Assembly (NCBI GenBank): GCA_026418455.1
Contig: JAOABH010000003.1
Span: 124,001-188,000 of the forward strand
Reading direction: 5' to 3'
DNA: 64,000 nt
Source: Hydrogenothermaceae bacterium
Lineage (GTDB): Bacteria; Aquificota; Aquificia; Aquificales; Hydrogenothermaceae
Position 1 is the stretch's first letter. Each line of letters opens with the position of its first letter. The position numbers were made by a program, and so were the translations under genes. The notes beneath the pieces were generated by a model. That model saw only the letters and a program-made list of their open reading frames with translations. It did not search any database and had not been told where the DNA came from. Shown here one piece after another: positions 14,876 to 63,258 of this stretch.

Positions 14876-14909
14876 TTATCTTAGCAGAGAGTAATTTGAG
14901 GTGATTACA

Positions 14910-15680
14910 ATGGGAAAAGTTTTCTTGATAGGTTGTGGACCTGGAGATTATGAACTTTTAACTATTAAGGCATATAAAACTTTACAAAATTTAGATATAG
15001 CTCTTGTAGATCATCTAATAACTGATGAGATATTAGAGACTTTACCATCAAAAACCAAGATTTTGTATGTAGGTAAGCAAAAAGGAAGGTTATCGGTAAA
15101 GCAAGAGGATATAAACAAAATTTTGTTAGAGTTTGCAAAATCCGGATTAAGAATAGGAAGATTAAAAAGTGGGGATCCTTATATCTTTGGGAGAGGGGGA
15201 GAAGAGTATTTATTTTTATTACAAAATGGGATTGAGGTAGAAGTTATACCTGGAGTGTCTTCTTCAACTGCTGGACCTTTATATGCAGATATTCCAATAG
15301 TAATGAGAGATTACTCTTCCGGATTTTCTGTTGTATCTGCTCATCTTTCCGGAGATAGATTCAATAAAGACTGGATACCTCTGTTGAAGCTAAGAAATCA
15401 CACAGTTGTAGTATTGATGGGATTAAGTAGAGTAAAAGATATTTTAGAAGAGGCAAAATATCAAGGTATAGATCTTAGGATTCCAACTGCCATAGTTAGC
15501 AATGTTTCACGATCTGATCAGAAGGTTGTAACTGGAACTCTGGAAGAGATAGAAAAACTTGCATCTGTCTCTCAAAAACCTGCGGTAATTATATTTGGAG
15601 AAGTTGTTAATCTACATAAAAAAATCAGAAGTTACAAAAATGTAACATTGAACATGGGAGAGTTAATATGGAAAAAATAG
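14910..15680 (+). CDS. cobA: Uroporphyrinogen-III C-methyltransferase (nitrate-operon copy)
   Basis: The 256-residue protein is a SUMT/CobA enzyme: VFLIGCGPGDYELLTIKA at the N-terminus, GRLKSGDPYIFGRGGEE in the SAM site, VLMGLSR and PTAIVSN further on. It makes precorrin-2 from uroporphyrinogen III, the first step to siroheme for the nitrite reductase downstream. The start is the ATG at 14910, because the alternative GTG at 14901 is part of the GAGGTG ribosome-binding site. The family usually has GGDP where this copy has SGDP. A paralogue sits in the sulfate operon at 55883. Its end overlaps nirA by 13 bp. Confidence 0.9.
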   Translation: MGKVFLIGCGPGDYELLTIKAYKTLQNLDIALVDHLITDEILETLPSKTKILYVGKQKGRLSVKQEDINKILLEFAKSGLRIGRLKSGDPYIFGRGGEEYLFLLQNGIEVEVIPGVSSSTAGPLYADIPIVMRDYSSGFSVVSAHLSGDRFNKDWIPLLKLRNHTVVVLMGLSRVKDILEEAKYQGIDLRIPTAIVSNVSRSDQKVVTGTLEEIEKLASVSQKPAVIIFGEVVNLHKKIRSYKNVTLNMGELIWKK

Positions 15681-17596
15681 TAAAAGTATCCCAGGAAAAG
15701 AATAAAAAATTAAATCAGATAGAACTATTAAAACTCCAGTATTCACCACAAGAAACATGGGAGAAATTGTCCTACTATGCTGTGAAGGGATTTTCTTCAA
15801 TATCAGAAGAGGATCTAAATTTCTTTCTTAAATGTTTCGGTATTTTTTACAGACCGGCTACTGGAGATAGATTTATGCTAAGGATAAGAATTCCAGGAGG
15901 TAAGTTAAACTACGATCAAGCTAAGAAGATAGGAGAGTTAGCTAAGGTATTTGGAAATGATTATATAGATATTACGACGAGAATGCAGGTAGAACTTAGA
16001 TATCTAAGGATAGAGGATATTCCTATAGTATTAAGGGAGTTAGAAGATGTTGGAATAACAACATTTCAAACAGGAGTGGACAATTTTAGAAACATAGTTC
16101 AAGATCCTTTAGATGGGGTAGCTTTTGATAATGTTATAGAAACTTGGGATACACTTTTAAAGATACAAGAAATTTTTTTAAAGAAAGAAGAATGGATATG
16201 TAAATTACCAAGAAAGTTTAATATAGGCATATTAGGATCATACTCTAATCGTTGTAATATTTACGGGCATGATCTTTGTTTTGTTTTGGCTGAGAAAAAT
16301 GGATTTTATGGATTTAATGTTTATCTTGGTGGAAAAGTTGGGAATGTAGCAAAATCTGCAGATGTTTTCCTTTTAAAAGAAGATGTTCCTGTATTTTTTA
16401 AAGCTTTAGCACAGTTATTTAAAGAATATGGTTTTAAAGATAGTAGGAATAAAAATAGGCTTAAATACTTAATAGATGCTGTAGGTATTGGTTATATAGT
16501 CGATGGAGTTAGTAAATTAGCAAATAGAGATTTTGATAAAGCAGGTAAAACATTAACAAATCTGGAAGGAGGGGAAAAAACAGGAAAAGTTTTTTTGAAA
16601 GATGGAACTTTTGCCATTCATATGGTTATTCCAGCAGGAATATTTTCTGGAAGTGATATGTTAGAAATTGCTGAACTTTCTAAAATATTCGGAAATGGGG
16701 AAATTAGATTAACAGTATCTCAAAACTTATATATTTTAGGAGTACCAAAAGATAATATAAGTAAACTTTTATCACACCCTATATTCCAAAAATATAAAAA
16801 TATACACTCCCCTTACTTCAATGATCTTATTGCTTGTGCAGGAACAGAACATTGTCCTTTCGGTGTAATACCAAATAAGCCAGATGCTATTAAATTAGCA
16901 GATTATTTAACTTCTAACTATCCATTAGATTCATCTCAAGCAAAAATCCGTATGTATTGGTCTGGTTGTGGAAAAGGTTGTGGACTTCATGGGTTGGGAG
17001 ATATCGGATTTGTAGGAGTAAAATTTAAAAAAGGAGAAGATACTCTATTAGGTGTTGATATCTATTATGGGGGAATTGTAACAAATGAATCGGAAGAAGG
17101 TAAACTTTTATTAAAGTCTGTAAGTTTAGATGAAGTTCAGTTTTATGTTGAAGAGTTAATAAAAGAGTATATCCGTTTAAAGGAAAGAGATGAAAGTTTT
17201 GAAAATTTCTATAAAAGAGTTCTATCAAGGTTATCAAAAGATGCTCTTAGGTTTTTTCTTATTTTTAATAATTTTGTAAAAGTAAAGTTTCCATATATAA
17301 GATTAGAGTTAGATGAATTAGTGTTAGATAAATCTTGTGAAGAAGAGGAGATATTTGGATTTGGGTTTCAGCTGTATAAAAAATTAACAGGAAAAAATCC
17401 TTACTCAAGACCGTACATCTTAGAAATTTACTCTGAACCTTTACCTTTGAAACCTTCAGAAATTAACCCTACACTACCAAAATTTTTCGATAGTTTTCTG
17501 TTAAAGATGATCCATAAGAATCCATCAAATAGATACAAAGTTTTCACAGAAATAGTTTCTGATTTAGAAAAAATTAATTTTTTCCAGGAGGTTTGA
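15668..17596 (+). CDS. nirA: Siroheme nitrite reductase with a kinase-C-lobe-like tail
   Basis: The 642-residue protein is a siroheme/4Fe-4S nitrite/sulfite reductase with two ferredoxin-like half domains and the cluster ligands C390, C396 (CAGTEHC), C434 and C438 (CGKGC). In an operon with nitrate reductase and CobA it should reduce nitrite to ammonium with ferredoxin. It is longer than typical NirA. Residues about 558-638 resemble the end of a Ser/Thr protein kinase: EIFGFGFQLYKKLTGKNPY looks like subdomain IX, and FLLKMIHKNPSNRY with R622 like subdomain XI. The kinase N-lobe, catalytic loop and APE are absent, so the tail cannot be an active kinase. No transmembrane segment seen. Confidence 0.87.
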   Translation: MEKIVKVSQEKNKKLNQIELLKLQYSPQETWEKLSYYAVKGFSSISEEDLNFFLKCFGIFYRPATGDRFMLRIRIPGGKLNYDQAKKIGELAKVFGNDYIDITTRMQVELRYLRIEDIPIVLRELEDVGITTFQTGVDNFRNIVQDPLDGVAFDNVIETWDTLLKIQEIFLKKEEWICKLPRKFNIGILGSYSNRCNIYGHDLCFVLAEKNGFYGFNVYLGGKVGNVAKSADVFLLKEDVPVFFKALAQLFKEYGFKDSRNKNRLKYLIDAVGIGYIVDGVSKLANRDFDKAGKTLTNLEGGEKTGKVFLKDGTFAIHMVIPAGIFSGSDMLEIAELSKIFGNGEIRLTVSQNLYILGVPKDNISKLLSHPIFQKYKNIHSPYFNDLIACAGTEHCPFGVIPNKPDAIKLADYLTSNYPLDSSQAKIRMYWSGCGKGCGLHGLGDIGFVGVKFKKGEDTLLGVDIYYGGIVTNESEEGKLLLKSVSLDEVQFYVEELIKEYIRLKERDESFENFYKRVLSRLSKDALRFFLIFNNFVKVKFPYIRLELDELVLDKSCEEEEIFGFGFQLYKKLTGKNPYSRPYILEIYSEPLPLKPSEINPTLPKFFDSFLLKMIHKNPSNRYKVFTEIVSDLEKINFFQEV

Positions 17597-33363: not shown

Positions 33364-33561
33364 CTTTAATCTCCTTCAAAAAGGGTTAAATTTTAGCAAG
33401 CAATATTTATGCCAAAGATATTTTAACCTAAAATCTAAAGATTTCAGAGGTTATCTGTTTTATTTTTGCAAATTTGACAAAACTATAATTTCTATGAAAC
33501 TCTACCATCAATTCAAGCTATAATATTTTTTTGAAAATTTTATAATTTTACCGGAGGTATT

Positions 33562-55882: not shown

Positions 55883-56647
55883 CTAATGATTTAAATTCAT
55901 CAGGATATAGGGTTGATTTCTTATTAAATCCTCTATGTCTGCAAATTTATGACAAAGTTTTACTACTTCGCCAAACATGATTATGGCTGGAGTTTCAACA
56001 AGTTGTGCTATTTTTTCAATATCTCTTAATGTCCCTGTAACAACCTTTTGGTTTTTCCTTGAGATATTGCTTATAATTGCTGTAGGTATTTCAAGGTCTA
56101 TATTTTGCCTTATAGCTTCTTCTTTAATTTCTTTTACTCTACTTAAGCCCATTAATACAATAGTTGTATGATTGGGGATCTTTAATAATTCTATCCAGTT
56201 TTTATTAAATTTATTTCCCTTGATATGAGCTGATACCACAGAAAAACTTGATGAAAATTCTCTAAATGTTACCGGTATACCGGTGGATAGAGCAGAAGTT
56301 ATACCCGGAATAATTTCCACATCAATTCCTTTACTTTTTAGATATATTAACTCTTCTCCTCCTCTTCCAAAAACGTAAGGGTCTCCACCTTTTAACCTTC
56401 CAACAACTAAATTTTCTTTAGCAAACTCATACATAAATCTATTTATCTCTTCTTGTTTTACACTGTGTTTACCTTTTTGTTTCCCAACATAAATAATTTT
56501 TACACCTGGCGGAATAAGTTCCAGTATCTCCTCAGATATTAAATGATCTACCAACGCTATATCTAAATTTTTGATAGCTCTTACAGCCTTAACAGTTAAC
56601 AGATCTGGATCACCAGGTCCACAACCTATTATATAAACTTTTCCCAT
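55883..56647 (-). CDS. cobA: Uroporphyrinogen-III C-methyltransferase (sulfate-operon copy)
   Basis: The 254-residue SUMT has VYIIGCGPGDPDLLTVKA, GRLKGGDPYVFGRGGEEL and VLMGLSRVKEI. It is a paralogue of the copy at 14910, sharing long identical blocks such as NLDIALVDHLI and YVGKQKG. It makes precorrin-2 for the siroheme of sulfite reductase. Here the SAM-site motif is the canonical GGDP, unlike SGDP in the nitrate copy. It follows sat by 15 nt in the cysH-TSUP-sat-cobA operon. Confidence 0.91.
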   Translation of the reverse strand: MGKVYIIGCGPGDPDLLTVKAVRAIKNLDIALVDHLISEEILELIPPGVKIIYVGKQKGKHSVKQEEINRFMYEFAKENLVVGRLKGGDPYVFGRGGEELIYLKSKGIDVEIIPGITSALSTGIPVTFREFSSSFSVVSAHIKGNKFNKNWIELLKIPNHTTIVLMGLSRVKEIKEEAIRQNIDLEIPTAIISNISRKNQKVVTGTLRDIEKIAQLVETPAIIMFGEVVKLCHKFADIEDLIRNQPYILMNLNH

Positions 56648-56662: not shown

Positions 56663-57817
56663 TCATCTGTTAATAGCCCATTTTATTAATACATCAGCAA
56701 CTTCCAGTCTAGAGAATTCCTTAGGAGGTCTCTTTCCTTCCCTTAGCATTGCTCTCACTTTTGTTCCGCTTAAATGAAGGTGATCTTCTTTAGAATGTGG
56801 ACAAGTTTTCGAGAATGCCATATTTTCACATTTTGTGCAGTAAAAAGAGTGTTCAAACTTTAAAGGCTGTATTCCAAGCTCATCTTTAAGCTGTTCCACA
56901 AATTCCTGGGCTTCATAGGTCCCATAGTAATTTCCTACTCCTGCATGGTCTCTGCCTATTATCATATGAGTTGCACCGTAATTTTTTCTTATTAGCATAT
57001 GGTGGACCGCCTCTCTTGGACCAGCATAATGCATTGATGCAGGTAGTACCGATAAGTGAACTTTTTCTTTGTTAAAATAATTATCTATCAGTACTTCATA
57101 GCATTTCATTCTTACATTTGCCGGTATATCATCTGGCTTTGTTTCTCCAACAAGAGGATGTATCAATACTCCATCCATAAGTTCAAGAGCTACTTTTATA
57201 ATATACTCGTGGGCTCTGTGTATTGGATTTCTTGTTTGAAAAGCTACTATATTTTTCCAGTTTCTTTTCTTTATATTTTCTCTAACCTGTGCAGGGTCTA
57301 AATAATATTTTTCATCTATACCTTCTCTTACAGGTCTGTTTAGAAGTCTTATTATTTCACCACCTATAAAGTTGCTTCCTGAGCTTTTTACAACTTTTAC
57401 CCCCGGATGTTCTATATCTGTTGTGTTGAAAATATTTCTGCAGTAATTTTCAATATCTAATTTAAATTTATCTTCTATAAGCATAATGGCTATTGGTCTA
57501 TTGTTTTTATCATATAGAGCTACTTCATCAGCTATTTTCACGTCTTTAAATATATCCTCGGGAATTGGTAAAACTATAGGAATAGACCATAAAAGTCCAT
57601 TTTTAAGATGTATATTATTGATAACTTCTTCTGCATCTTCTTTTGTCAAAAATCCATTTAGTGGGGAAAATCCACCGTTTGCTATCATCTCGCAATCACT
57701 TACATATCTGTCAGCTATTACAATTTTTTTAAGTTTTTCTGCTTTTTCTATTAAATCTTTTCTCTCTTCTTCAGTAGCTATCTTGTTTATTAATTTACCT
57801 CCATGAGGATTGAGCAT
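56663..57817 (-). CDS. sat: Sulfate adenylyltransferase (ATP sulfurylase)
   Basis: The 384-residue single-domain enzyme has FQTRNPIHRAHEYIIKVAL (the QTRNPxHRAHE site, shown in part), LVGETKPDDIP and GRDHAGVGNYYG. A C-terminal zinc site (CTKCENMAF, CPHSKEDHLHLSGT) is as in thermophilic bacterial enzymes. There is no APS kinase domain. It makes APS from sulfate and ATP. Within an operon with APS reductase and CobA, and with sulfite reductase across the promoter, the direction is assimilatory. Confidence 0.95.
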   Translation of the reverse strand: MLNPHGGKLINKIATEEERKDLIEKAEKLKKIVIADRYVSDCEMIANGGFSPLNGFLTKEDAEEVINNIHLKNGLLWSIPIVLPIPEDIFKDVKIADEVALYDKNNRPIAIMLIEDKFKLDIENYCRNIFNTTDIEHPGVKVVKSSGSNFIGGEIIRLLNRPVREGIDEKYYLDPAQVRENIKKRNWKNIVAFQTRNPIHRAHEYIIKVALELMDGVLIHPLVGETKPDDIPANVRMKCYEVLIDNYFNKEKVHLSVLPASMHYAGPREAVHHMLIRKNYGATHMIIGRDHAGVGNYYGTYEAQEFVEQLKDELGIQPLKFEHSFYCTKCENMAFSKTCPHSKEDHLHLSGTKVRAMLREGKRPPKEFSRLEVADVLIKWAINR

Positions 57818-57836: not shown

Positions 57837-58598
57837 TTAAATTTTTTTTAATAAAAACCCAAAAGATAAAAATATAATGAAGAAATAAAGTGCTATCTTG
57901 AGCTTGTCTTGAGATACCTTAGGAGATATAAAAGCTCCAACAAAAGCTCCAATAACTCCACTTAATATCAGTTTAGTTGCAATCACTTCATCTACATTTC
58001 CTAAGGAATAATGTACAGAACCGGCAACTAACGATAGTATCAGACCATGAACTATATCGCTTCCGACTATTTTCGAAGGAACCAACGGACAAACTGCCAT
58101 TAATATGGCAGTTACTAGAACACCTGAGCCAATAGATGTTAATCCTATCTCAAACCCTATAATAAATCCAAGTAAAGATATAAGATAAGGTCTGTTTCTT
58201 ATATCTATATCTATTAAATCTTTTTTAATATATGATTTATAAAATGAGAAAATTACAGAGATAAATATAAGTAAAACAACTAAGATAGGTAGTAGTTTAT
58301 TAACTAAGATAGGATATTTTTCATTGAGTAGATGTAAACTGTAACTACCCAGAATTGTCCCTGGAACACTTCCGAAAGCCAAAAAAGATATTAGCTTTGT
58401 ACAGATCGACCTTCTATATACATAAACAGAAGCAGCAGCTATTTTTGTAATACCTGCAAAAAGAAGACTAGTTCCAATAGCAGTAGTAATAGGAACATTG
58501 AAGAATAAAACCAATGTTGGGGTGGTTAACATACCTCCCCCAAGTCCAGTTATTCCTATAACAAATCCTAATATAGCTCCTATTATCAGTATTTCCAT
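57837..58598 (-). CDS. TSUP (TauE/SafE) family membrane permease
   Basis: The 253-residue protein has about eight membrane segments and the TSUP signature in both halves: GFVIGITGLGGGMLTTPTLV and EIGLTSIGSGVLVTAILM. TSUP proteins move sulfite, sulfate or organosulfonates; between cysH and sat the likely cargo is sulfate import, although export of excess sulfite cannot be excluded. The true start is ATG 58598, overlapping the cysH stop (TAATG), with GGAGAAAG upstream; the longer in-frame start at 58631 lies within cysH. Confidence 0.87.
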   Translation of the reverse strand: MEILIIGAILGFVIGITGLGGGMLTTPTLVLFFNVPITTAIGTSLLFAGITKIAAASVYVYRRSICTKLISFLAFGSVPGTILGSYSLHLLNEKYPILVNKLLPILVVLLIFISVIFSFYKSYIKKDLIDIDIRNRPYLISLLGFIIGFEIGLTSIGSGVLVTAILMAVCPLVPSKIVGSDIVHGLILSLVAGSVHYSLGNVDEVIATKLILSGVIGAFVGAFISPKVSQDKLKIALYFFIIFLSFGFLLKKI

Positions 58599-59311
58599 TA
58601 TTCTTTCTCCGTAAATGTATGTAAACCACATTCTAATTTCCCTTTACCAGCCCATCTACCAGCCCTTTCGTCATCTCCTTCAAGGACAGGTTTTGTACAA
58701 GGAGCACACCCTATACTTAGATAGTTTTTATCGTAAAGAGGATTGTATGGTAGTTTATTTTCTATAACATAAGTCCATACATCCTTTCTTTTCCAATCTG
58801 CTATTGGATTAACTTTAAGAATATGCTTTCCTGAAGGAATAGGAATCTTATGGATTTCTAATTTCCCTATATTTGCCCTGGTAGGAGATTGATCTCTTCT
58901 CATTCCCGTAATCCATACATCAAGATCTTCCAAAGCTCTTTTCAAAGGCTCTACTTTTCTTATTTCACAGCATTTGTCAGGATTTTTTTCATAAAGTTTC
59001 TCTCCGTATAGTTTATCCTGTTCTTCTATAGATATAAGAGGTTTAATGACTTTTAAATTTAGTTTCCACTCTTCTCTTAACCTCTCAACTAACTGATAGG
59101 TTTCAGCAAAATGAAAATCTGTGTCTATAAAAATTATTAAAGCATCTGTTTTTATTTGTTTTATCATATGGATAATAGCAATATCATCAGCACTAAAAGA
59201 AGATGTAAATCCGACATTCTCAAAATTTTCATAGACCCATTTTAAAAGTTCTTTTGCAGTTAGATTTTCAAAATACTCGCTTTTTTCCTTTGCAAACTTT
59301 TCTGTAAACAT
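58598..59311 (-). CDS. cysH: Adenylylsulfate (APS) reductase, thioredoxin-dependent
   Basis: The 237-residue PAPS/APS reductase has SFSADDIAIIHM (phosphate loop), KCCEIRKVEPL and IGCAPCTKPV. The CC...CxxC pairs bind a 4Fe-4S cluster and mark the APS-using type. The C-terminal ECGLHTF holds the catalytic Cys that forms the S-sulfo intermediate. It reduces APS to sulfite. First gene of the leftward operon behind a near-perfect -24/-12 promoter; ATG after GAGAGGTGG. Confidence 0.94.
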   Translation of the reverse strand: MFTEKFAKEKSEYFENLTAKELLKWVYENFENVGFTSSFSADDIAIIHMIKQIKTDALIIFIDTDFHFAETYQLVERLREEWKLNLKVIKPLISIEEQDKLYGEKLYEKNPDKCCEIRKVEPLKRALEDLDVWITGMRRDQSPTRANIGKLEIHKIPIPSGKHILKVNPIADWKRKDVWTYVIENKLPYNPLYDKNYLSIGCAPCTKPVLEGDDERAGRWAGKGKLECGLHTFTEKE

Positions 59312-59346
59312 CTATCCACCTCTCTACTTTAGTTTTCAAGATATAT

Positions 59347-59362
59347 AGCAAAAGATGTGCCA
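59347..59362 (-). promoter_or_regulatory. Sigma-54 promoter of cysH-TSUP-sat-cobA
   Basis: On the minus strand TGGCAC (59362-59357), 5 nt, then TTGCT (59351-59347): a full match to TGGCAC-N5-TTGCW. The start is expected near 59336, 25 nt before the cysH ATG. Confidence 0.82.
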
Positions 59363-59415
59363 ATTTTTTCAGACAGGAATATCAACACTTCATAACTTTT
59401 ACAATTCACTGTGAT

Positions 59416-59450
59416 GGCTAAAAAATGTTCAAGTTGGCGATTTTTTAACC
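59416..59450. promoter_or_regulatory. Inverted repeat midway between two sigma-54 promoters (candidate shared enhancer)
   Basis: GGCTAAAAAAT (59416-59426) and ATTTTTTAACC (59440-59450) are inverted 11-nt arms with one mismatch and a 13-nt spacer. The centre (59433) is exactly halfway between the GG pairs of the cysH and sulfite reductase -24/-12 promoters, about 72 bp from each. Probably bound by the activator encoded at 61870. Confidence 0.65.
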
Positions 59451-59503
59451 AATCTTACATTTGTTACATACTTTAAAAACTTGAAGATAGTTAGATATAA
59501 ATA

Positions 59504-59519
59504 TGGCATAGATATTGCT
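59504..59519 (+). promoter_or_regulatory. Sigma-54 promoter of the sulfite reductase-activator operon
   Basis: TGGCAT (59504-59509), AGATA, TTGCT (59515-59519) fits the -24/-12 consensus with one deviation and exact 12-bp GG-to-GC distance. Start expected near 59530; the ATG at 59560 follows GGAGGA. Confidence 0.82.
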
Positions 59520-59559
59520 TATAAGAATACAAATTCTAATTTGAAGGAGGAAATTCCAG

Positions 59560-61848
59560 ATGGAGATCTTATATGAGAATTACAAAGAAGATGTTAAAGA
59601 GTTTATAAATATGTATAAAAGATACAAAGAAGGGGAAATATTTGAAAGTGATTTTAAAAATTTTAGACTTAAAAATGGTATATACGGACAACGTCAGCCT
59701 GGTTTTCAGATGGTAAGGATAAAGATACCTGGAGGACTTTTATCAACTAAGCAGATGAGAGAAATTGCAGATATTGGAGATGAATTCTCAAATGGAGTGG
59801 CTCATATAACCACAAGACAAGATATACAGTATCATTGGATAAAGATAGAGGATGTTCCACAGATAATAGAGAGAGTAAATAAAGTAGGACTTACAACTAA
59901 GGATGCTTGTGGAAACACTGTGAGAAATATAGTTGTAAGTTATTTAGCCGGTGTCTGTCCTAATGAACCATTTGACGTCCTATCCGTTTCAAGACAGATA
60001 GGAAAAAATTTTCTTGGATTGTTTGGGGATCTTCCAAGAAAATTCAAAATTGCTTTCTCTTGCTGTGAGAAACATAGTTACTTAATTCTATTCAACGATA
60101 TTGGTTTTGTTCCTGCTATAAATAATGGAAAGGCTGGTTTCTATGTCTATTTAGGAGGAGGATTGGGAGATAGACCAAAATTGGCTTATAAATATTCTGA
60201 TTTTGTAGAAATAGATAAACTTTCTGCTTTTATTAAAAGTGTCCTTACTGTATTCGATAAATATGGAGATCGAAAAAATAAGAGAAGGAACAGAATGAAG
60301 TTTTTGATTGAAAATTTAGGATTTGAGAAGTTTTTGGATTTAGTAAAGGAAGAATTAGAGCATCAGGAATCTCTATTTGAAATAAAAACGCAAATTTATT
60401 ATAACGATGACAACTTTATAGAAAGTTGTCTTCCTGTTTCCGAACATAAAGATTTTAATATATGGATATCTACCAATGTTATACCTCAAAAACAACAAGA
60501 TCTTTTCACAGTGGTTATAAAAGTAAACTTAGGAAATATAACTACAGTTAATTTAAGATATTTAGCAGACATAGCTGAGAAATACTCCTTGATTACCAAA
60601 ACAACCCAAGAACAGAATATAGCTTTCTTGAATGTTAAAAAAAGTGATCTGTATAACATATATAATGATCTAAAATTAAAGGGTCTCAATCACTTTGGAT
60701 CGAACACATATCTTGATATAACTGCTTGTCCAGGAAGTGAAACATGTGCTTTGGGTATAACTTCTTCCAGAGATTTAGCTCGAGCTATATATGAAAATCT
60801 ACCAAAAGATGAGGATAGTTTAAACAGGCTAAAAAATGTTAAAATAAAAATAAGTGGTTGCCCAAATTCTTGTGCCCATCATCATGTAGCTTCTATTGGA
60901 CTTCATGGAGTTGCAGAAAAAATTGATAACACTTTAATTCCTTCATATTTCTTACATATAGGAGGAATTGGAGATTTAAATAATGCAAAAATAGGGGCAA
61001 GTATAATTAAGATTCCAGCAAAAAATGTTCCAGATGTTATAAATTTATTACTGAATAAGTATTTAGAAGAATCCAATGGAGAAAGTTTTGAAGAATTTTA
61101 TGAAAAATTTGATAGAGATGAACTTAAAACCATGTTAGAAAAGTTCAGAAAATTTCACAAAGAGGATTTAGAATATAATAAAGATTGGGGTTCTGACAAA
61201 GAGTTTTTATTAGAAGATTTAGGTGTTGGAGAGTGTGCTGGAATCATAGCGGATAAAGTTGAAGAAAACTTAAGAGAAGCGGAGAGAATGATAAAGCAAG
61301 CTTATACGCATATTAGTAAAGGCTTCCCTGATGATGCACTATTACATCTGAAAAAAGCTATTGATTTGATAACGACGGGGCTTTTGATTCCTTTTGGAAT
61401 TAAAGCAGAAGGTGAGAAAGCTGTGGAGAAATTTGTAGAAAATATCATAGGAAGGAAGCTTATTAAAGAAGAATATATAGATATCCTTACAGATTTAGAA
61501 ATCTATAAAGATGTAAAATTGCTATATAATAAGGTTAATAGCTTCTATGAAGATTCAAAAAGGGTTTATTTGGATTTAAGGAAAAAAACCGAAGAAAAAT
61601 TTGAAAAGGGAGAAGTAGAAAATAAAAGAAAAGAAATTTTAAATTTAAAAGGTGTGGAATGTCCATTTAACTATGTCCAAGCAAAGTTAAAAATTAGAGA
61701 GATGCCTGTGGGAGCTATTTTGGTAATCAATATAGATAACCAAGAAAACGCTGTAAGTGTTGCAAATAGTTTAAAGGATGACGGTCATGAAATTGTAGAC
61801 TTTTACCAAGATGATAAAGAATATACAATTATTGTAAGAAAGAGATAA
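59560..61848 (+). CDS. Siroheme sulfite reductase fused to a helical domain and a C-terminal TusA domain
   Basis: The 762-residue protein starts with a siroheme/4Fe-4S reductase (about 1-540; ligands C390, C396 in CPGSETC and C434, C438 in CPNSC). A helical segment follows (about 575-690; IKQAYTHISKGFPDDALLHL) that resembles HEPN-like bundles, then a TusA domain (about 691-762; LKGVECPF with C701). By operon context it reduces sulfite with ferredoxin. The TusA part could carry the product sulfur as a persulfide; this is inference. It is paralogous to NirA at 15668. ATG start with GGAGGA upstream; the activator gene follows by 21 nt. Confidence 0.88.
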   Translation: MEILYENYKEDVKEFINMYKRYKEGEIFESDFKNFRLKNGIYGQRQPGFQMVRIKIPGGLLSTKQMREIADIGDEFSNGVAHITTRQDIQYHWIKIEDVPQIIERVNKVGLTTKDACGNTVRNIVVSYLAGVCPNEPFDVLSVSRQIGKNFLGLFGDLPRKFKIAFSCCEKHSYLILFNDIGFVPAINNGKAGFYVYLGGGLGDRPKLAYKYSDFVEIDKLSAFIKSVLTVFDKYGDRKNKRRNRMKFLIENLGFEKFLDLVKEELEHQESLFEIKTQIYYNDDNFIESCLPVSEHKDFNIWISTNVIPQKQQDLFTVVIKVNLGNITTVNLRYLADIAEKYSLITKTTQEQNIAFLNVKKSDLYNIYNDLKLKGLNHFGSNTYLDITACPGSETCALGITSSRDLARAIYENLPKDEDSLNRLKNVKIKISGCPNSCAHHHVASIGLHGVAEKIDNTLIPSYFLHIGGIGDLNNAKIGASIIKIPAKNVPDVINLLLNKYLEESNGESFEEFYEKFDRDELKTMLEKFRKFHKEDLEYNKDWGSDKEFLLEDLGVGECAGIIADKVEENLREAERMIKQAYTHISKGFPDDALLHLKKAIDLITTGLLIPFGIKAEGEKAVEKFVENIIGRKLIKEEYIDILTDLEIYKDVKLLYNKVNSFYEDSKRVYLDLRKKTEEKFEKGEVENKRKEILNLKGVECPFNYVQAKLKIREMPVGAILVINIDNQENAVSVANSLKDDGHEIVDFYQDDKEYTIIVRKR

Positions 61849-61869: not shown

Positions 61870-63258
61870 ATGGTTGACAAAATAACTTTGGTAACAAAGG
61901 ATGAAAATATCTTAAGAGACATAAAAAAATATTTTAAGAAAGTTAATCTTATAGAAGGTAACATAAAGGATCGAAATTTAAATGGTATAGTGTTTGTTAA
62001 TATCCATGATTTTGGAATTCTTCCCTTCTCTCCTTCGACCGGAACATATCCAATTGCAATAATAAATAAGAAGATTGCTAAATCTAATTCTGCAGCATTG
62101 ATAATGAAGATAATGTCCAATAACTATTTTGATTTTATAGAATACCCATTAAAAGGAGAAGATATAAAAAATTTGTTAGAAAAAATACAGAAAAAGGAAA
62201 AAGATGAGGAAGAAACTTACTACATAAATAATAAGGAATCTGATGAAACTATTCTTTGTCAATATCTCTGCTCTATAATAGGTTCATCTCAGTATATGAA
62301 AAACATATGTAAAGTTGCTGGAGAGGCGGCACCAACAGATCTTCCTATATTGATAACTGGTGAAACAGGAACAGGAAAAGAACTTTTTGCTAAAGGTATA
62401 TGGAAGCTTAGTAAGAGAAAAGATAAGCCATTTATTGCAATAAACTGTGCAGCAATACCAGAAAATTTAATAGAGAGTGAACTCTTTGGTTATGAAAAAG
62501 GAGCTTTTACAGGAGCGGAGGGTCAAAAAAAAGGGAAATTTGAGATCGCTGATGGAGGGACAATATTTTTAGATGAAATTGGAGAGATGTCTTTAGAAGT
62601 TCAGTCAAAATTACTAAGGGTGTTACAGGAAGGAACTTTCTATAGAGTTGGAGGAGAAAAAGAAATAAGAGTAAATGTAAGAGTAATTGCAGCAACTAAT
62701 AGAGATCTAAAACAGATGGTAGCAGAGGGTAAGTTTAGAGAAGATCTCTATTATAGACTTAACGTTATAAGCATAGAGCTTCCACCACTAAGAGATAGAA
62801 AAGAGGATATTCCTTACATAGTTGAGTGTATTATAAATAAAAACAATGTGAGAATAAATAAAAATATTGAAGGATTTACAAAAGAGTATATAGAAAAACT
62901 AAAATCAAGACAATGGAAAGGAAACATAAGAGAACTGGAAAATGTTGTGGTTCGTTCTATGGTGTTTTGCAGAGATAATGTTTTAAGCTTATCAGATTTA
63001 GAATTTTTGGAAGAGGAAGAAGAAAAGGTAGGTATTATAGATGAAAATTTAGATAAGAATTTAGAAGACACAATCAAAGCATATATAAAAAAAGGAGATA
63101 TTGAACAGTTAAAATATAAAGTTGAGTCAATAATGATAAAAGCTGTTTTAGAGAAAACAAATTTTAACCTCTCTAAATCTGCAGAAATATTAAATATCAA
63201 TAGGTCTACTCTAAGAAAAAAAATTAAAGAGTTTAAATTGTTGTCAGAGCAGTTATAA
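61870..63258 (+). CDS. Sigma-54-dependent activator of the sulfate-assimilation genes
   Basis: The 462-residue protein has an N-terminal receiver-like domain (1-105), an AAA+ domain (Walker A GETGTGKE at about 164-171, GAFTGA loop at 211-216, [13 protein letters not shown]) and a C-terminal Fis helix-turn-helix (SKSAEILNINRSTLRKKI). The receiver looks degenerate: VFVNIHDFG has Asn near where the phospho-Asp would be, so it may sense a ligand or be constitutive. It lies in the same operon as sulfite reductase behind a -24/-12 promoter, implying autoregulation and control of cysH-TSUP-sat-cobA. That link is inference from position. Confidence 0.88.
   Translation: MVDKITLVTKDENILRDIKKYFKKVNLIEGNIKDRNLNGIVFVNIHDFGILPFSPSTGTYPIAIINKKIAKSNSAALIMKIMSNNYFDFIEYPLKGEDIKNLLEKIQKKEKDEEETYYINNKESDETILCQYLCSIIGSSQYMKNICKVAGEAAPTDLPILITGETGTGKELFAKGIWKLSKRKDKPFIAINCAAIPENLIESELFGYEKGAFTGAEGQKKGKFEIADGGTIFLDEIGEMSLEVQSKLLRVLQEGTFYRVGGEKEIRVNVRVIAATNRDLKQMVAEGKFREDLYYRLNVISIELPPLRDRKEDIPYIVECIINKNNVRINKNIEGFTKEYIEKLKSRQWKGNIRELENVVVRSMVFCRDNVLSLSDLEFLEEEEEKVGIIDENLDKNLEDTIKAYIKKGDIEQLKYKVESIMIKAVLEKTNFNLSKSAEILNINRSTLRKKIKEFKLLSEQL

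Follow-up and report, generated by a model that had tools for sequence, protein, structure and literature searches.

Divergent operons that depend on sigma-54 and share a single activator have been described previously. In Desulfovibrio vulgaris, the type III secretion operons associated with DVUA0100 are divergent, share a common motif, and carry the activator gene inside one of them (PMC4641369). In Escherichia coli and Salmonella, zraP and zraSR have divergent sigma-54 promoters served by one activator, which is encoded in one of the two operons (PMC4987338, PMC3844500), and the sites mapped in Salmonella are ∼168 bp apart (PMC3844500). Sigma-54 has also been connected with sulfur: SfnR of Pseudomonas putida is a sigma-54 activator that serves the scavenging of sulfur under low sulfate (Endoh 2003 and 2005, Habe 2007, cited in PMC8234197), and an in-silico survey (2025) reported sulfite reductase (COG0155) to be over-represented among the sigma-54 targets predicted for Aquificia (PMC12316311). 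The present analysis concerns a stretch of 64,000 nucleotides (the window) from a Hydrogenothermaceae bacterium (contig JAOABH010000003.1, positions 124,001 to 188,000), in which the gap between the sulfate-assimilation genes cysH and sir-tusA harbors two outward-facing −24/−12 promoters around a central pair of palindromes, with a sigma-54 activator gene downstream of sir-tusA. The best explanation, to which a probability of about 0.85 was assigned from the sequence comparisons, is that assimilatory sulfate reduction in Aquificales has a sigma-54 regulon of its own, wherein the central enhancer and the system's own activator would serve both divergent promoters.

The Aquificales system resembles zraP/zraSR in its divergent sigma-54 promoters and in the single activator lying in one target operon. 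ZraR, however, is switched on by a kinase and responds to zinc and envelope stress as a response regulator. It differs from DVUA0100 in pathway, activator, and motif, and the accessible part of that report describes no precise midpoint geometry (PMC4641369). SfnR, compared by literature only, acts on organosulfur (dimethyl sulfone) genes and is itself under CysB (PMC8234197); in the Aquificales system, sulfate reduction itself would be controlled, by an activator lying in its own target operon. The in-silico survey, in its accessible portion, names no activator, enhancer, divergent geometry, or pathway, and COG0155 also covers nitrite reductases (PMC12316311). In the open-access literature, no account was found joining cysH with sigma-54 and an enhancer-binding protein, nor any placing the entire route of sulfate assimilation under sigma-54. 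The original prediction that the arrangement was undescribed is therefore retained for the link between pathway and regulator, which is undescribed beyond that one survey as far as the accessible portions of these sources go (PMC12316311), and given up for the layout, which was already described for DVUA0100 (PMC4641369) and is similar in zraP/zraSR (PMC4987338).

Divergent promoters and the central site pair

The intergenic gap comprises 248 bp between the start of cysH (59311, minus strand) and that of sir-tusA (59560, plus strand). The features predicted within it are as follows.

59348-59362, minus strand: −24/−12 sigma-54 promoter of the cysH-tauE-sat-cobA operon, TGGCACATCTTTTGC; position and orientation kept in seven related loci
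59504-59518, plus strand: −24/−12 sigma-54 promoter of the sir-tusA/activator operon, TGGCATAGATATTGC
59415-59431, no strand: activator site 1, TGGCTAAAAAATGTTCA, centre 59423; homologous site in seven related loci
59435-59451, no strand: activator site 2, TGGCGATTTTTTAACCA, centre 59443

Two outward-facing near-consensus promoters had been predicted in exactly this interval, and strict sites were found for both, 36 nt upstream of the cysH start and 41 nt upstream of the sir-tusA start. Both fit TGGCAY-N5-TTGC and agree with the sigma-54 promoter consensus TGGCAC-N5-TTGC, including the invariant GG and GC. Their GG pairs (59360-59361 and 59505-59506) are 145 bp apart with the midpoint at 59433. 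Among 2000 dinucleotide shuffles of the gap, a match arose once on the plus strand and once on the minus strand, and never on both together. A sigma-70 scan of the region gave one weak match as compared to a shuffle mean of 2.9, and rpoN is present as a single copy in the window's genome (1.54 Mb). Sigma-54 dependence is hence predicted for both promoters.

The 11-nt inverted repeat of the original prediction was recovered at the same coordinates, with arms GGCTAAAAAAT (59416-59426) and ATTTTTTAACC (59440-59450) pairing at 10 of 11 positions (11 of 12 if extended by one base) and its centre, 59433, coinciding with the midpoint of the GG pairs. As a functional unit, the single repeat was rejected: two 17-bp sites are seen in relatives, and on its own the repeat lies within chance. 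Its arms are the outer arms of TGGCTAAAAAATGTTCA and TGGCGATTTTTTAACCA, two imperfect tandem palindromes of 17 bp placed 20 bp apart, i.e., about two helical turns. The repeat is real, and it owes its significance to this conserved two-site form. Each site lies 62.5 bp from the GG pair of one promoter and 82.5 bp from that of the other, so that it is near once and far once; the midpoint position follows from each promoter keeping the same distances (∼63 and ∼83 bp) from a common site pair. The pattern of two TGNNNA-N5-TNNNCA palindromes 20 bp apart was absent from 2000 shuffles and occurred once in the window. As conserved dyads ∼80-150 bp upstream of the start and linked to an activator gene, the sites have the properties of upstream activator sites.

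The window's genome has the exact two-site pattern at one place only. A search of 61 genomes gave 21 occurrences, as compared to 5 with the reversed control; of the 21, 9 lay in regulatory regions of the sulfate-assimilation system. None of the other 27 matches to TGGYAY-N5-TTGC in the window's genome, which lie upstream of nifH, glnB, amtB, lpxC, and other genes (identified by their translations) or inside genes, had the site pair; the best single site near them scored 11.4, as compared to 16.6 and 13.8 in the cysH/sir-tusA region. A genome scan with a single site and two mismatches was uninformative (∼78 matches in the window's genome) and was replaced by the two-site pattern.

Other sigma-54-like promoters were also noted. 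In the window, a strict promoter at 33400-33414 (minus strand, TGGCATAAATATTGC) lies directly upstream of lpxC without an enhancer of the cysH/sir-tusA type. NtrC4 of Aquifex aeolicus has sites upstream of lpxC, and the window promoter may represent the same NtrC4-type control in another family. Another divergent pair, 148 bp apart, was observed at G000:C3:322375-322537 between a gene for a GAF-domain NifA-like activator and a ferredoxin-like gene, where site pairs of the cysH/sir-tusA kind were not found. A NirA-like locus with divergent −24/−12 boxes in genome G008 was set aside as a separate system, as its siroheme reductase gene lies beside glnB/amtB and was read as being under nitrogen control.

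Conservation in Hydrogenothermaceae, Aquificaceae, and g21

The relatives of the window's genome included Persephonella, a Hydrogenothermus metagenome-assembled genome, and Aquificaceae, which makes membership of the Hydrogenothermaceae the most probable placement. Alignment of the region across eight Hydrogenothermaceae loci, the window included, showed conservation of the promoters, their spacing, and the central sites, as the original prediction would have it. Divergent −24/−12 promoters were kept in the seven other loci (G003, G034, G027, G014, G020, G030, and G036) and were present in a ninth (G111). The GG-GG distance ranged from 141 to 148 bp over the eight loci, and two clear sites were observed in seven of them, with centres at −10/+10, −10/+12, or −11.5/+11.5 bp from the midpoint and the consensus TGGTTA-N5-TAACCA. 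The proposal that one set of activator dimers sits at the centre was thus upheld as to the shared central element, which is kept in all eight loci, and amended as to its composition: there are two tandem dimer sites, not one.

The genes around this region vary. In the window, cysH-tauE-sat-cobA lies to the left and sir-tusA-activator to the right; in Persephonella-type genomes, a TrpD-like gene, cysH, and tauE lie to the left and sat-sir-tusA to the right. The unit of promoters and enhancer has therefore been retained while the neighboring genes were rearranged. In the Persephonella-type genomes and G003, the activator gene lies ∼1.5 kb further downstream of sir-tusA than in the window, and the gene immediately upstream of it is preceded by a second −24/−12 box with its own site pair (TGGCTAAAAATTAACCA and TGGTTAAAAAATATACA in G003). 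In this second box and site pair, as identified from sequence, the same motif is employed once more, independently.

In the interval from sir-tusA to the activator gene, the Persephonella-type genomes and G003 encode a small CXXCH-type protein, a membrane protein with only a HAMP domain, and a secreted protein with a PCRC motif (L034:4501-5922). These are possible signaling partners; in the window's genome, none was found next to the activator gene. An element CAAYAACTTA is also conserved ∼5-6 bp upstream of the −24 box, between it and the enhancer (L034-L041; e.g., G003, G014, and G030). For the form CANNNACTTA-N5-TGGCAY, 61 genomes gave 29 occurrences, as compared to 2 with the reversed control, and the form was also found at other sigma-54-like promoters of the family. 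It is perhaps an extended −24 element or a site for integration host factor (IHF). For IHF, the best matches between enhancer and −24 box (8 of 9 positions) were seen in 18 of 27 promoters against 17% expected; this reading was set aside because the matches are mostly at a fixed distance from −24 and belong to a motif also present at other sigma-54-like promoters of the family.

The activator gene is divergent from sir-cysH-(tauE-cobA-)sat in Aquificaceae, and likewise in a fourth lineage, g21. The Aquificaceae gap contains a −24/−12 box and two sites 20-22 bp apart with the consensus TGTTTA-N5-TATACA, the first of which abuts or overlaps the activator start codon. In 7 of 11 loci, 62.5-64.5 bp separate the near site from the GG; the shortest and longest distances observed were 52.5 and 84.5 bp. 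Among nine loci fetched once the pattern was fixed, eight had the site pair in the expected gap; four of these are close relatives (g21), and the independent number is therefore smaller.

The linked activator and the sulfate-assimilation genes

The activator gene begins 21 nt past sir-tusA. The original prediction of sigma-54 control of cysH-sat-sir with a dedicated activator is supported, on sequence grounds, by the conserved promoters and sites and by an activator family shared by Hydrogenothermaceae and Aquificaceae. The promoters, the sites, their geometry, the gene linkage, and the activator clade were all established by sequence comparison.

61870-63258, plus strand: sigma-54 activator with a degenerate receiver, a C130-x3-C134 helix, an AAA+ domain with GAFTGA, and a Fis-type helix-turn-helix (PF00158, PF02954)

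The AAA+ sigma-54 interaction domain (PF00158, 257.6 bits), with invariant Walker A and GAFTGA positions, and the Fis-type helix-turn-helix (PF02954, 46.6 bits) identify the product as an enhancer-binding protein. The N-terminal part lacked an intact receiver phosphorylation site (acidic pair, Asp, Thr/Ser, and Lys) and had no match to a Pfam receiver; the acidic pair is absent in all family members and the acceptor Asp is not conserved. The AlphaFold model showed a receiver-like fold at the N-terminus and a helix (residues 125-137) bearing C130 and C134. Invariant positions in the N-terminal half are G49, A63, S83, P93, C130, L133, C134, and G138. The CX3C precedes the AAA+ domain, and the motif [LI]C[QKE]xLC was present in 28 of 28 family members and in none of 19 paralogues with a readable linker. 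The closest solved structures are NtrC1 and NtrC4 of Aquifex aeolicus (1ny5, 4l4u, and 3dzd), which comprise receiver, AAA+, and Fis-type helix-turn-helix. NtrC1 and NtrC4 are ordinary receiver-type activators, whereas the CX3C family has a degenerate receiver and the CX3C helix.

The family forms one clade (support 100/96). When its conserved stretches were scanned over 84,980 species genomes, matches were found only in Aquificota, where 30 of 136 genomes contain true members. Five Desulfurobacteriaceae-type (f5) activators with weak N-terminal matches were left out of this count: they are without the CX3C, fall outside the clade, and had no sulfur genes found adjoining. In Hydrogenothermaceae, the activator and sir-tusA co-occur in exactly the same 10 of 37 genomes. 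Many of the Aquificaceae genomes scanned contain activators without any member of the CX3C family. The third base of the site and the recognition-helix residue that follows NR vary together: TGG occurs with A/S and TGT mostly with I/L.

The genes flanking the gap are as follows.

58598-59311, minus strand: cysH, assimilatory (phospho)adenylyl sulfate ((P)APS) reductase; Pfam PF01507, NCBIfam cysH and PRK02090 above cut-off
57837-58631, minus strand: TauE/SafE-family transporter; PF01925, with an internal ATG at 58598 as the likelier start
56663-57817, minus strand: sat, ATP sulfurylase; PF01747 and PF14306, TIGR00339 above cut-off
55883-56647, minus strand: cobA/cysG-C, uroporphyrinogen-III methyltransferase (siroheme synthesis); PF00590, TIGR01469 above cut-off
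59560-61848, plus strand: sir-tusA, siroheme sulfite reductase with a fused C-terminal TusA domain; PF03460, PF01077, and PF01206

ATP sulfurylase, (P)APS reductase, siroheme sulfite reductase, and siroheme methyltransferase thus occur together, as in an assimilatory sulfate reduction operon, and most of them recur in relatives. Sir-tusA did not reach the cut-off of the equivalog models for Sir (TIGR02042), CysI, or NirA (best 251 bits against 594), and by its domains and context is classed as a divergent sulfite reductase. The fusion is conserved in Hydrogenothermaceae and g21. The TusA tail suggests sulfane-sulfur transfer, and the product of assimilatory sulfite reductase has been reported to include zero-valent sulfur (PMC13188885). 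A second pair of cobA and siroheme reductase genes (window 14901-17596) lies beside a NarK-like transporter and a molybdopterin oxidoreductase, pointing by translation to nitrate assimilation; no strict −24/−12 site was found there.

Proposed regulation and its alternatives

In the proposed regulon, dimers of the linked activator would bind the adjacent palindromes at 59415-59431 and 59435-59451, and the activated dimers on this central pair would nucleate an AAA+ ring. The ring would loop the DNA to the sigma-54 polymerase waiting at either of the equidistant promoters, and cysH-tauE-sat-cobA and sir-tusA-activator would be switched on together. Since the activator gene is in the right-hand operon, activation would feed back positively; such feedback is likely by two layouts, with the activator in the sir-tusA operon (window) or behind a second box and site pair (Persephonella-type, G003). 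The trigger would probably be a lack of reduced sulfur; in place of phosphorylation, the degenerate receiver at the N-terminus and the invariant CX3C helix would detect it.

Several observations weigh against this proposal. Site 1 of the window agrees with the consensus at 8 of 12 positions and is thus a weak palindrome, only a single clear site is seen in G020, and four g21 genomes (G102-G105) have a good −24 with a poor −12 (ATGC instead of TTGC). Kinship among the genomes inflates the conservation counts. The covariation of base and residue and the co-occurrence with sir-tusA are confounded by phylogeny, the former tracking the two clades. The sulfur-limitation signal is a guess from the target genes, with the CX3C helix as the candidate sensor. 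The inverted repeat alone is not rare, an equally good one being present in 17 of 400 shuffles. This last figure, together with the A+T-rich composition of the region, could favor a repeat that serves as operator, bound by a repressor or another regulator of sigma-70 type, with the −24/−12 matches arising by chance; however, the strict boxes at conserved spacing in eight loci and the sigma-70 matches below the shuffle mean make this highly improbable.

The same promoters and sites could also be read as two back-to-back single-site enhancers, each palindrome serving one promoter, for the best half of each 17-mer faces outward and one site is nearer each promoter. However, one-promoter Aquificaceae also bear two tandem sites 20-22 bp apart, as does the promoter before the activator in Persephonella-type genomes; two sites per promoter therefore appear to be the ancestral unit, and separate single-site enhancers are considered quite unlikely. 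Because one-promoter Aquificaceae carry the two-site unit, both promoters of the window would use both sites. Binding by another sigma-54 activator (NtrC- or NifA-like), with the linked activator regulating something else, is conceivable as the window's genome encodes several further activators. Yet the site pair is absent at nif, glnB, amtB, lpxC, and other sigma-54-like promoters, tracks the linked activator across two families, and precedes the activator's own operon in Persephonella-type genomes, and this possibility was given very little weight. The reading in which the linked activator acts through a shared central site pair was hence preferred.

As to the signal, the activator could be an ordinary response regulator phosphorylated by an unlinked kinase: Aquificaceae members keep Asp (VILDVD), Thr/Ser, and Lys at or near the usual receiver positions, and the model shows a receiver-like fold. 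However, the acidic pair is missing throughout, the Asp varies and is replaced by Asn in the window protein, the Lys is lost in Hydrogenothermaceae, and no histidine kinase is linked, while the invariant positions of the N-terminal half listed above include both cysteines; phosphorylation is thus regarded as unlikely. In a further reading, considered less likely than not, the CX3C family may constitute a new sensory class of sigma-54 activator reading cellular sulfur directly. C130-x3-C134, in the helix linking the degenerate receiver to the AAA+ domain, would then be a thiol, persulfide, or metal switch that keeps the protein inactive as long as sulfide or cysteine is abundant.

In the absence of their activator, sigma-54 promoters are silent, which would suit thermophiles that ordinarily live on sulfide and have to reduce sulfate only once the sulfide is exhausted. 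With its mirror-image layout, the region would be a natural system for asking if a single activator ring can act on two equidistant promoters. As the link is conserved across two Aquificales families with a private activator and DNA site, it offers a regulon and a motif that can be tested, with the CX3C helix as a candidate sensor of sulfur. Sigma-54 would thereby be tied to sulfate assimilation as a whole pathway in these organisms, as it is to nitrogen.

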